64,000 nucleotides of DNA from Thermosynechococcus sp. (GTDB lineage Bacteria; Cyanobacteriota; Cyanobacteriia; Thermosynechococcales; Thermosynechococcaceae), in NCBI RefSeq assembly GCF_025999095.1, contig NZ_AP024678.1, positions 1,953,527-2,017,526 of the forward strand, given 5' to 3'. Below are positions 50,651-56,783 of this stretch, piece by piece (the stretch's first letter is position 1; the number at the start of each line of letters is the position of its first letter). Made by a program: the position numbers and the translations under genes. The notes beneath the pieces are model-generated. The model saw only the letters and a list, made by a program, of their open reading frames with translations, was not told where the DNA came from and made no database searches.

Positions 50651-52225
50651 CTATTTAGGCAACTTTGTAAACCAGTTCTTCTTGGCGTGATCGAGCTGAC
50701 CTTGAACGAATCCCGAGACCATACTAAAGTCTGCTCCAGAAATGTCGGCACCGGTAAAGTTTGCTCCTGAGATCGAGGCATCCAGTAGTTTTGCCCCCTT
50801 CAAATTTGCCCTCTCAAAGTTGGCTTGCACCAGATAGGCACCGCAGAGATTGGCATCATTCAGGTTAGCTCCCTGAAAATTGGCTTCCCGCAATACAGCA
50901 TTGGCAAGAATACAGCCTTTCAAATCTGCATTGGTAAAATTGGCGTTGGCAAAGTTAGCCCCCGCCAGATCCGCATTGCGGAGGACAACATTGGAGAGAT
51001 CGACATCCATAAAATCTCGCTCTCCCCGTTTATAGGCTGTGAGCACCTGTGCCGCTGTCATCCGTGGTGTGACTTTGGCGCGGAGGTGTTGACCGGGACC
51101 AGTTCCGACAACGGGTGGGCCTCCCAATTGGGTCCCTGTCATCTTTGATTGGCGCACTCGCGCCGCTTGGGCATTTTGACTCACCGATGAGGCATAACTG
51201 GAGCGCTTAGGTGCTCCAGGAACACGGGAACGGTTTTGGGTCGGCGGGGTCGAAAGGGCATTGCTGAGGTCATCATCCTCTGCGGCAACAGTAGGAGCAG
51301 CCCCACCAGCTGCTTGTTTGGACTCAAGTAGTTGCAGATCCGCAAGGACATCCATGGCGGTTTGGTAGCGATCTTTAACCGCATCCTGGAGCATTTTGTT
51401 GAGGAGAGCAGCAAACTCAGGGGAAATATTCTTGACGTAGCGCTGCCAATGCCATTCGCCGGTGCGCGGATCCCGTTCAATTTCCTTGGGGGATTTAGCG
51501 GTCAGTAAATAGACACAGGTGACCCCAAGGGCATAAATGTCACTGGCATAGACCGGACGCATGGCCATTTGCTCTGGCGGCGCATACATGGGGGTTCCCA
51601 CGGCGAAGCTGGTAAATGTGGATAGCTCCGGGGCATTTTCCACCATGGCCTGCGTGACTTTGTCTTTCACGGCACCAAAGTCAATCAGCACCAACCTGTT
51701 ATCAAGATCACGGCGGATGAGATTAGCCGGCTTAATGTCGCGGTGAATGACACTATTTTGGTGTAGGTAATCAAGGATGGGCAGCACTTCCTGCAAAACC
51801 TGCTTTACCTCTTCTTCGCTTTTGGGCCCAAAGCGCTTGACCTCCTGTTGCAGGGTAAGGCCACCCACGTATTCTTGGATCAGGTAAAATTCATTTTCAT
51901 TTTCAAAGTAGCCGAGCAGCCGAGGCAATTGTGGGTGATTGCCAACTTTACCCAAGGTTGTGGCTTCCCGCAAAAAAAGCTCCCGCGCCATCGCTATGAT
52001 GTGGGGAGCTGTGGCGGCGGGTCGCAACTGTTTAATCACACAGGTGGGATTGCCCGGCAGTCGCGTATCAATGGCCAAAAAGGTAGCACCGAACCCCCCT
52101 CGCCCTAGAACTTTAATTGCCTTGTATTGATCATTGAGTAGAAGTTTGCTGCCGCAGGCTTGGCAAACATCGACATCGTCAGGGTTGTCTGGTTTGGTAC
52201 AGTTCGGATTTAGGCAATAACTCAT
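50651..52225 (-). CDS. spkB: Ser/Thr protein kinase with zinc ribbon and pentapeptide repeats (SpkB-like)
   Basis: The 524-residue kinase starts with a Cys motif (C4, C9, C21, C24: CLNPNC and CQAC). The kinase domain (about 32-300) has the glycine loop GRGGFGATF, the Lys in VIKQL, the catalytic loop HRDIKPANL and DFG in LIDFGAVKD. A Ser/Pro-rich linker follows, then pentapeptide repeats at about 405-500. This layout is that of SpkB, which in Synechocystis is linked to oxidative stress. It may phosphorylate threonines read by the FHA proteins in the window, but that is inference. Confidence 0.87.
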   Translation of the reverse strand: MSYCLNPNCTKPDNPDDVDVCQACGSKLLLNDQYKAIKVLGRGGFGATFLAIDTRLPGNPTCVIKQLRPAATAPHIIAMARELFLREATTLGKVGNHPQLPRLLGYFENENEFYLIQEYVGGLTLQQEVKRFGPKSEEEVKQVLQEVLPILDYLHQNSVIHRDIKPANLIRRDLDNRLVLIDFGAVKDKVTQAMVENAPELSTFTSFAVGTPMYAPPEQMAMRPVYASDIYALGVTCVYLLTAKSPKEIERDPRTGEWHWQRYVKNISPEFAALLNKMLQDAVKDRYQTAMDVLADLQLLESKQAAGGAAPTVAAEDDDLSNALSTPPTQNRSRVPGAPKRSSYASSVSQNAQAARVRQSKMTGTQLGGPPVVGTGPGQHLRAKVTPRMTAAQVLTAYKRGERDFMDVDLSNVVLRNADLAGANFANANFTNADLKGCILANAVLREANFQGANLNDANLCGAYLVQANFERANLKGAKLLDASISGANFTGADISGADFSMVSGFVQGQLDHAKKNWFTKLPK

Positions 52226-53280: not shown

Positions 53281-54126
53281 ATGAGCACCGCTGCAGCAAC
53301 GGCTGTTCCCAGTATTTTCTCAGGTGAATTTGTTCAGGAAACACTGGCTTTAACCCGTCGCCTGTTTATCCAACTGCAACGGCGCCCTTCCACACTGGTG
53401 GCGGGGGTGGTACAACCCTTGATTTGGCTGGTCCTCTTTGGTGCCCTCTTCCAAAATGTGCCGCAGGGCCTCTTTGGCGAGAGCACGAGTTATGGTCAGT
53501 TTCTTTGCGCTGGCATTATTGTCTTTACGGCCTTTAGTGGTGCCCTCAATGCGGGGTTGCCGGTGATGTTTGACCGTGAATTTGGGTTTTTGAATCGGCT
53601 GTTGGTGGCACCGTTGGCTTCGCGGTTTTCAATTGTTCTCGCCTCGGCGTTGTTTATTACCACCCTAAGTCTGATTCAGGTGGGGGCGATCGCCAGCTTG
53701 GGGGCACTCCTAGGAACGGGGCTACCCAATTTAGCGGGTATTGGGGTTGTCTTGGCAACGGTGCTGATTTTGGTTTTCGGCGTAACGGCCTTGAGCCTCG
53801 GTCTTACCTTTGCCTTGCCGGGGCACATCGAATTGTTGGCCGTTATTTTTGTCATCAACCTACCGTTACTCTTTGCCAGTACCGCCTTGGTGCCCCTGTC
53901 GTTTATGCCTCGCTGGTTGCAGTGGATTGCTAGCCTCAACCCCCTCAGTTTGGCCATTGAACCAATTCGCTATGTCTATCTGCACCCCGATTGGCGGTTG
54001 AGCGATGTGGTGATGGTGGCTCCTTGGGGGTCACTGAGCTTGGGAGCGGCACTGCTAATCCTTTTGACTGTCGCCCTAGGAATGAGCCTACTGATCCAAC
54101 CGCTATTACGGCGCCGCTTGGCCTAG
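53281..54126 (+). CDS. ABC-2 type transporter permease
   Basis: The 281-residue protein has about six spans. It starts after a soluble amphipathic N-terminus (ETLALTRRLFIQLQRRPSTL) and has the ABC-2 motif region VMFDREFGFLNRLLVAPL. Near the end MPRWLQWIASLNPLSLAIEPIRY is followed by the last span. No ATPase gene is adjacent, so its partner must be encoded elsewhere. It belongs to the DrrB/NodJ-like exporter group; cargo unknown. Confidence 0.85.
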   Translation: MSTAAATAVPSIFSGEFVQETLALTRRLFIQLQRRPSTLVAGVVQPLIWLVLFGALFQNVPQGLFGESTSYGQFLCAGIIVFTAFSGALNAGLPVMFDREFGFLNRLLVAPLASRFSIVLASALFITTLSLIQVGAIASLGALLGTGLPNLAGIGVVLATVLILVFGVTALSLGLTFALPGHIELLAVIFVINLPLLFASTALVPLSFMPRWLQWIASLNPLSLAIEPIRYVYLHPDWRLSDVVMVAPWGSLSLGAALLILLTVALGMSLLIQPLLRRRLA

Positions 54127-56000
54127 ACCACCCGCAATGTGAAGCCTTGGGTACACCACTCCCGCACATCCAAGCAAAACTCATTCCCTTCCGGTTCACT
54201 GCTGAGATCCCCTAGCAGACCGAGAACCAAGGCAAGACTATCCTCACCAGAAATTAGGAATGGCTCTGAATGATTGGGGTGGCTACTCAGTTGACTAAAA
54301 CGGCTCAGAGGACGGGGGCTGCTGATGATAAAGACCTTCAGCCATTGGCAAGGGCGATTCAGCGTCCAAGTATAGAGGGGAATATTCAAGCCGGGGGCAA
54401 CCGCTAACTGCCACGACTGCGTTTGCAGCGGCAGCAGGAGCATCCCCTGACTGCTATCCCAGGCAAGGGCGACAATGTTGAGGGGGCGATCGCCATAGTT
54501 GTAGAGGCTCCAGCGGCAAGTATCTCCCTTGGCCAAGGTGAGGGGGCTGTGTAAATTCATGGCTGGCAGCTTAGTGCTCAGGACATCTGGAAGGGGATTG
54601 GGACTGCGGGGGGGGGATTGGCGGCTCAAGAGTTTTGCTGTTGGCGATAGTTGTTCAAGAGTTGTACACACAGCCACCTGACTGGAGGTGGGATTGAGCG
54701 TTAGGGTCAGCCATTTCTGGGCCAGGAGGGCATTCAGTAGGGGGTTCAAGCGACGGATACCGGCTTTGGCGGCTTCATTGCTACCACTACAACTGTGTTC
54801 CAACAACGTCCCTACTGGCCACTCCAGCCCATAACTGCCCGCTGTCTCACTTTTGGTGAGAACCACATCCGGCAGGGAGTCACTGCTGTTGAGGACGGCA
54901 GCTTTTTCTTCATTGGCCAGGGCATTGATGGCATCCACGCGCTCAATTTTGCTGAGGTTGGTGTCGAGGGCCACCTGCAGATGGAGATTTTTCCCTAAAC
55001 GCCGCTGTTGTTCATAGAGGCGATCGCCCACTTGCAGAGGCTGACTGCTGACTCCTTGGGCCAGCAGGCCATTAAAACTCGCCATATCAACCACGGTGCC
55101 ACCATCGGCAGTGCTCCAGCGACTGTGGGGATGACAGTAGGTCAACAGCCAAGGACTGAGGCCGCCACACCAGATTTGTAGGGAGCGATCGCGCCCTATT
55201 GCCTGCACTACACCATCAAATCCTGGGGATAGGGTGAGGTTCGCCGCTAACCCGTCGCTCACCAGACGCATTTCTGCCCCCGTTTGCCAGCGCAGTTCAT
55301 CGGCTGTGTACATCAGGCTCGTTGCCAAGGGGCGATCGCCCCCCAAAGCCGCTAGATAATGGCTAAAACTAGCAGTAAAGAGTCCCATAGGGACACCATT
55401 CAGGTGTGTTTCTACTCCCAAATCAGCCCAGAGGAGATGATCTTTGGGAACTTGGCCTATGCCACGGGTCTCTCCGGGGTGCAACGGGACAAATCGCCAA
55501 CGCAGCATCTCCCCCTCAATGGGGGGCGGGCTAAAGCGAGTGTCGAGCCATACCTGTACCCCTTTGGTACGCAGTAATTCAGCCAGAGGTAAGATGCCCT
55601 CACCAGCTCTTGTGGCATCCGCCAAAACCAGCGCTGGTTGTTGCTGCCAGAGGGTGCCATAGCCACTAAAGTAAACCAAAAGGGGCTGACCAGAGCGCTC
55701 CAGCACCCCTAGGGTTTCTTGGACAGCATCCAGGGTTGCCGCCTGTTCCGTCAGGAGTGTAATGTCACCGTCCGCCAGCCCCCACCCGTCTAACAACAGG
55801 TTTTTCACTAGCTGAACATCTGTCAGACAACCCGCTAAGGGGGGCACACCGGCCAACTGGGGATAGTGGTTAATGCCAATCAGGAGGACTCGCCACGGAC
55901 GAAGGGAGTCTGCCCAGGAGCCGCCTGCCGTTTGCCAAACCCACGGCATCAGTGTCAGTGCCGCAGCACCATACAAAAAAGAACGACGGCTTAACCGCAT
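54123..56000 (-). CDS. Tat-exported caspase-like (p20) protein lacking the catalytic dyad
   Basis: The 625-residue protein starts SRRSFLYGAAALTLMPW, a twin-arginine signal. A p20-like domain follows (about 34-220): VLLIGINHYPQL, then YFSGYG (110-115) where active caspases have SGHG, and WLDTRFS (151-157) where they have LD-C-S/H. The His is Tyr114 and the Cys is Arg155, so peptidase activity is not expected. A C-terminal domain (about 450-600) resembles the beta-rich, DUF4384-like half found with cyanobacterial caspase homologues. It is convergent with the ABC permease (four-base overlap). Confidence 0.83.
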   Translation of the reverse strand: MRLSRRSFLYGAAALTLMPWVWQTAGGSWADSLRPWRVLLIGINHYPQLAGVPPLAGCLTDVQLVKNLLLDGWGLADGDITLLTEQAATLDAVQETLGVLERSGQPLLVYFSGYGTLWQQQPALVLADATRAGEGILPLAELLRTKGVQVWLDTRFSPPPIEGEMLRWRFVPLHPGETRGIGQVPKDHLLWADLGVETHLNGVPMGLFTASFSHYLAALGGDRPLATSLMYTADELRWQTGAEMRLVSDGLAANLTLSPGFDGVVQAIGRDRSLQIWCGGLSPWLLTYCHPHSRWSTADGGTVVDMASFNGLLAQGVSSQPLQVGDRLYEQQRRLGKNLHLQVALDTNLSKIERVDAINALANEEKAAVLNSSDSLPDVVLTKSETAGSYGLEWPVGTLLEHSCSGSNEAAKAGIRRLNPLLNALLAQKWLTLTLNPTSSQVAVCTTLEQLSPTAKLLSRQSPPRSPNPLPDVLSTKLPAMNLHSPLTLAKGDTCRWSLYNYGDRPLNIVALAWDSSQGMLLLPLQTQSWQLAVAPGLNIPLYTWTLNRPCQWLKVFIISSPRPLSRFSQLSSHPNHSEPFLISGEDSLALVLGLLGDLSSEPEGNEFCLDVREWCTQGFTLRVV

Positions 56001-56132: not shown

Positions 56133-56783
56133 CTAAAGGCCTTCCCCCCGCACAATGAAGCGGACACGCTGGCTAATAGTTGTCGCATGGTCACCAATGC
56201 GCTCCAAGTTGCGAATCAGCAGCAGTAGGATCAAGCGCAGTTCCACCGGCTCTTGGGGATTCAAAGGGGCGCAAAGTCGCCCATAAAGACGTTGGTAGTC
56301 GGCATCGACGGCATCATCGCAGTTGGCTAGGGCGACTCCCGCCTCAGGATCAAAATTGGCAATGGCGGATAGGGCGGCCGATAGCAACAGTTGCGATCTC
56401 TCGAACATCAAGCGGAGGTCCTCAAAGTAAGGTGGGGGTGGGTACCGCAGCAGCGTTTGAGCAGCACGGCCAATTTCAAGGGCATCATCGCCGATGAGCG
56501 CTAGATCGCGACAGAAGTGGGAAAGCATGACCAGAAATCGCAGATCCTCTGCCACAGCGGCTTGCAATGTCAGCAGGGCGATCGCCTGGCGATTGAGTTC
56601 TTGAGCACTGCGGTTAATGTCTTGTTCCCTTTGGATCAACTGCTCAACACTGAGGAGATTTCGCTCAATCAGAGCACCATAGGCCAGTTGACAGGCACTT
56701 TCCACCAGTGCCCCTAGGCGCAGCAAGTCACTGCGCAGACGTTTTAGTTGCCGTTCAAAATGGGTGGCCACAGTCTCAGGCAC
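56133..56783 (-). CDS. phoU: Phosphate signalling protein PhoU
   Basis: PhoU links the Pst phosphate transporter with the phosphate sensor kinase. The 216-residue all-helical product has two repeats, with conserved metal/acidic patches such as DLALIGDDALEIGRAA and LLIRNLERIGDHATTIS. Length is normal. No pst gene is in the window. It is divergent from the branched-chain amino acid permease gene. Confidence 0.9.
   Translation of the reverse strand: MPETVATHFERQLKRLRSDLLRLGALVESACQLAYGALIERNLLSVEQLIQREQDINRSAQELNRQAIALLTLQAAVAEDLRFLVMLSHFCRDLALIGDDALEIGRAAQTLLRYPPPPYFEDLRLMFERSQLLLSAALSAIANFDPEAGVALANCDDAVDADYQRLYGRLCAPLNPQEPVELRLILLLLIRNLERIGDHATTISQRVRFIVRGEGL

Follow-up and report, generated by a model that had tools for sequence, protein, structure and literature searches.

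To our knowledge, the molecular function of pseudo-orthocaspases is not known, though most cyanobacteria retain these proteins. The combination of a Tat-like signal with a dead catalytic dyad in cyanobacterial pseudo-orthocaspases was published in 2019 (PMC6426788). The proteins described there, which carry mainly Tyr-Ser (YS) or Tyr-Gly (YG) at the dyad positions, contain a caspase p20 domain that has lost the His-Cys (HC) dyad, an N-terminal twin-arginine (RR) signal, and a long C-terminus without a clear domain; Klemencic and co-workers reported that the acidic specificity pocket is retained and hypothesized a thylakoid-lumen location (PMC6426788). Passages of two papers from 2020-21 name Tyr-Arg (YR) among the rare dyads (PMC7475262, PMC8283722), and a passage of the former cites an earlier report that no such proteases occur in T. 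elongatus BP-1.

Experiments on two members have been reported, and both are the single pseudo-orthocaspase of their genome with Tyr at the His position. Deletion of sll0148, which encodes SyOC of Synechocystis PCC 6803, results in higher H2O2 tolerance (PMC7889975); the knock-out data thus point to a stress role and name no ligand. In PCC 7002, A0101 ("ICE-like protease p20") was enriched in PsbU-APEX2 labelling of the thylakoid lumen (mean log2 7.64 over the cytoplasmic control), was detected in no cytoplasmic control sample, and corresponds to sll0148 by reciprocal best BLAST (PMC7880944). Also comparable are the metacaspases TbMCA2, whose S1 pocket consists of Cys92, Asp95, Ser156 and Asp211 (PMC4357240), and Arabidopsis metacaspase 9 (MC9). 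Here, we analyzed a window of 64,000 nucleotides from a Thermosynechococcus genome, which carries a pseudo-orthocaspase gene with a different residue, Arg, at the catalytic Cys position.

Results

The gene is an exact open reading frame of 625 codons with an ATG start and a GGGAGG directly 5' of it on the minus strand (read by eye). Its features are as follows.

54123..56000, minus strand: pseudo-orthocaspase gene with Tat-type signal, 625 aa (open reading frame; PF00656 above cut-off; sole family member of the genome)
55908..56000, minus strand: Tat-type signal peptide, residues 1-31, MRLSRRSFL... (SRRxFL motif; RR in 101/105 orthologues; tatC present)
55356..55895, minus strand: caspase p20 domain, residues ~36-215 (Pfam, family profile against the PDB, alignment)
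55827..55829, minus strand: Cys58, putative S1 pocket, equivalent of TbMCA2 Cys92 (Cys in 94/105 orthologues; PMC4357240)
55818..55820, minus strand: Asp61, putative S1 pocket, equivalent of TbMCA2 Asp95 (105/105 orthologues)
55665..55667, minus strand: Ser112, putative S1 pocket, equivalent of TbMCA2 Ser156 (105/105 orthologues)
55659..55661, minus strand: Tyr114, replacing the catalytic His (sequence and alignment with HC members)
55542..55544, minus strand: Asp153, putative S1 pocket, equivalent of TbMCA2 Asp211 (105/105 orthologues)
55536..55538, minus strand: Arg155 (CGC), replacing the catalytic Cys (11/11 Thermosynechococcus, 0/94 other orthologues)
54126..55103, minus strand: C-terminal region, residues 300-625, with a GxxLxExxR...ALxxxLxxIERVDA block and a weak DUF4384-like stretch (alignment)

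Across Thermosynechococcus the gene is under purifying selection (dN/dS 0.09-0.19), and it is therefore a selected gene rather than a chance reading frame. The 3' end of the gene overlaps by four bases that of a convergent ABC-2 transporter gene (53281-54126, plus strand), and the gene is located downstream of phoU (56133-56783, minus strand). This neighbourhood, which also includes an HD-domain gene, is conserved within Thermosynechococcus only, and its comparison across the loci gave no lead to function; a promoter scan 5' of the gene found none. Several side observations were made at these loci. In 7 of 13 loci outside Thermosynechococcus, belonging to several families (L128, L131, L132, L133, L134, L137 and L139), the gene immediately 5' of the pseudo-orthocaspase gene and in the same orientation encodes ATP sulfurylase (sat), an arrangement not seen in Thermosynechococcus itself. 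In two loci of one family (L133:8550-10229 and L139:8591-10231), a related protein gene comes next after the pseudo-orthocaspase gene, and the L133 copy of its product matches DUF6930/DUF7309. One Thermosynechococcus genome has its orthologue broken into two frames (L012 and L033; G021:C1:666944-668817) because a poly-C tract is one base shorter there, with 8 C against 9 C in the window gene (54608-54616); either slippage or a sequencing error would account for the difference. Elsewhere in the window, the product of 50651-52225 (minus strand) looks by eye like a serine/threonine kinase that carries pentapeptide repeats at its C-terminus.

The p20 framework proposed by the first-pass annotation was borne out by profile searches. 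Residues 38-120 match Pfam Peptidase_C14 (PF00656) with 23.0 bits (cut-off 21.4), and the family profile found metacaspases in the PDB with E-values down to 2.3e-19, aligning FSGYG of the window protein to HYSGHG. A separate p10 domain was sought, and no second Pfam domain was found in the protein; the profile alignment does, however, extend over the region of metacaspase 9 that corresponds to p10. AlphaFold models, built from an input of four sequences only, were of low confidence (mean pLDDT 33.5 for the full protein and 44 for the p20 part), and no geometry of Arg155 or the pocket was read from them. A fold search with the low-confidence p20 model (pLDDT 44) gave metacaspases as all of its 22 best matches, with weak scores (best E 1.5e-3). 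TbMCA2 and MC9 share the profile match and, through this low-confidence model, the fold match with the window protein; they differ from it in that they possess His and Cys, cleave after Arg/Lys, and are not known to be Tat substrates.

Residue 114 of the window protein is Tyr and residue 155 is Arg, and the His-Cys dyad is absent. That these are the true dyad positions follows from the metacaspase profile alignment and from two orthologues (L109 and L117) that keep HC there, reading FHYSGHGS...VLDSCHSGGG where the window protein has VYFSGYGT...WLDTRFSPP; Tyr114 and Arg155 thus fall on the catalytic His and Cys positions, just as the first-pass annotation had assigned them. The window protein is a pseudo-orthocaspase by substitution of both dyad residues, and probably has no peptidase activity. 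The two HC orthologues themselves combine an intact dyad with an RR Tat-type start and are candidate exported active orthocaspases. A nearby alternative dyad, which would have contradicted the first-pass annotation, was also sought: no other His/Cys pair is conserved among the 105 aligned orthologues, and H45, H214, C278 and C404, which are the other His and Cys residues shared by the whole genus, occur in at most 7 of the 94 orthologues from outside it.

The family is widespread, with matches in 29/29 genomes of the order and in 291/388 sampled genomes of the cyanobacterial class. Orthologues are mostly missing from the small genomes of family f2, a pattern consistent with published findings that Prochlorococcus and Cyanobium lack such proteins if f2 is, as it appears, the corresponding group. 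The window genome has one copy, the family profile finding no second member even at an E-value of 10. Dyad states and conservation were counted in 105 aligned non-redundant orthologues, namely 11 from Thermosynechococcus and 94 others. Outside the genus, YS (34) and YG (29) dominate, followed by LS (6), LG (5), HG (5), FG (4), FS (4), YC (2), HC (2), and one each of LA, CG and CS. YR was found in 11/11 Thermosynechococcus orthologues and in 0/94 of the others. The described YS/YG-type pseudo-orthocaspases have Ser or Gly at the Cys position (Gly in SyOC of 6803, Ser in A0101 of 7002), whereas Thermosynechococcus has Arg. In a FastTree tree computed without the two dyad columns, the YR sequences fall into a single clade (support 100) next to two Tyr-Gly sequences of the same family (L015 and L016), showing that Arg155 had a single origin beside Tyr-Gly sisters. 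Because Arg155 is encoded by CGC or CGT and the Gly codons of these sisters are GGC and GGG, a single base change from Gly to Arg (GGC to CGC) is possible.

The N-terminus of the window protein (MRLSRRSFLYGAAALTLMP) contains an SRRSFL motif, a hydrophobic stretch and a signal peptidase site (SRRSFLYGAAALTLMP), with cleavage likely after Ala30, from S-W-A / S-L-A before Asp31. The twin Arg is intact in 101/105 orthologues, the four exceptions having a missing or shifted N-terminus; at the second and third residues after it, Phe occurs in 85 and Leu in 100 orthologues, respectively. Lys never replaces either Arg, which is in keeping with a Tat signal rather than a generally positive start. Dedicated Tat models stayed below cut-off on the single protein (TIGR01409, 13.2 against 16.7 bits; PF10518, 12.3 against 22.7 bits) and gave weak matches in 8/27 family members. 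TatC is encoded in the window genome. By motif and conservation, though not by a dedicated model, the protein is a putative Tat substrate, and the Tat-type signal noted in the first-pass annotation stands on this basis. Its view of the combination of YR with this signal as notable does not, since the Tat-like signal is family-wide and was already published (PMC6426788); nor is the pair itself a novelty, given its naming as a rare dyad in passages of PMC7475262 and PMC8283722.

The GCxxD, FSG(H/Y)G and LDxC motifs correspond between TbMCA2 and the window protein, so the TbMCA2 pocket residues Cys92, Asp95, Ser156 and Asp211 map to Cys58, Asp61, Ser112 and Asp153, respectively. Only 8 of 224 columns are invariant in the p20 region, and three of these are Asp61, Ser112 and Asp153; Cys58 is present in 94/105 orthologues. 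By contrast, the two dyad positions come 74th and 134th when the columns are ordered by conservation. This invariant pocket set against a decaying dyad is the strongest hint at a putative retained binding function, although the pocket Asp and Ser residues also belong to structural motifs (FSG, LD), and their conservation need not imply ligand binding. The C-terminal region is likewise constrained. Purifying selection was stronger in residues 300-625 than in the p20 domain in 7 of 8 dN/dS comparisons, E330 is invariant, and several C-terminal columns are at least 97% conserved among the 105 orthologues; DUF4384 matched this region of relatives below cut-off only.

Discussion

What could a caspase homologue without its dyad do? 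The best explanation of these data, which we consider fairly probable, is a lumenal or periplasmic protein that binds a basic segment without cleaving it, possibly with self-plugging by Arg155. The folded protein would use the Tat pathway to reach the thylakoid lumen (or periplasm). Since both catalytic residues are lost, it would cleave no peptide; the acidic S1 pocket, which holds Arg/Lys in metacaspases, would still bind a basic segment of a lumenal peptide or protein and leave it uncut, and the conserved C-terminal half would be the partner-binding part. The scaffold or binding role suggested by the first-pass annotation is plausible as a likely consequence of dyad loss. In Thermosynechococcus, Arg155 may occupy the pocket as an internal pseudo-substrate, so that function would shift to the C-terminal half. 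A stricter form of this idea holds that Arg155 inserts into the invariant Asp61/Asp153 pocket and blocks it for good, so that what is a lumenal Arg/Lys-peptide reader in the Tyr-Gly and Tyr-Ser relatives would here be constitutively occupied; this is speculative and seems rather doubtful to us.

The same data could be read with the p20 domain as a structural remnant, the pocket being kept for folding and the C-terminal half doing everything; it might, for instance, be an assembly factor or a stress factor of the lumen. The mostly lower dN/dS of residues 300-625, the invariant E330 and the highly conserved C-terminal columns favour this, as does the thought that Arg155 could ruin the pocket while the gene persists; yet Asp61, Ser112 and Asp153 are invariant across lineages with many different dyad losses, and we judge a mere remnant unlikely. 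An enzyme working through another residue, such as Cys58 or a different His/Cys pair, is highly improbable: Cys58 is common and sits at the pocket position of TbMCA2 Cys92, but the His position is lost, 11 orthologues lack Cys58, and the genus-fixed His and Cys residues are rare outside the genus. The idea of a second nucleophile relates to Cys29/Cys147 of metacaspase 9, and our literature search on these two residues found nothing relevant.

An inactive partner that modulates a true caspase of the same cell is a known mode of action for cFLIP and TbMC4/TbMC3 (discussed in PMC6426788). Here it is scarcely credible, as the family profile at an E-value of 10 detects no second member in the genome and a partner is thus unlikely; a Peptidase_C14 search of the genome found no other either, though the same search missed the window gene too.

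For the favoured reading, that of an exported, non-cleaving binding protein, location matters. The window gene is probably orthologous to sll0148, judging by the single-copy, class-wide family and not by direct sequence comparison. Because the sll0148 orthologue A0101 was labelled in the lumen, the Thermosynechococcus protein would be lumenal as well. In our literature search only PMC6426788 named both orthocaspases and the thylakoid lumen, and the orthocaspase papers found seem not yet to have joined the family to the lumen labelling data. For 6803 SyOC the knock-out phenotype is known and for 7002 A0101 the location, whereas the window protein is known from its sequence. Inactive caspase homologues with a Tat-type signal are common among cyanobacteria and have been described before. 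What this analysis adds is that Arg155 is fixed throughout Thermosynechococcus, that it arose once, that a single base change could have produced it from a Gly codon, and that the lumen data can be connected with this family.

Overall, the invariant pocket, the free decay of the dyad and the lumen location of an orthologue lead to a testable idea, namely that the pocket binds basic peptides uncut. Thermosynechococcus offers a natural experiment in this respect, in which a natural Arg at the Cys position may plug the pocket, and its protein, coming from a thermophile, is a good candidate for the first solved structure of the family.
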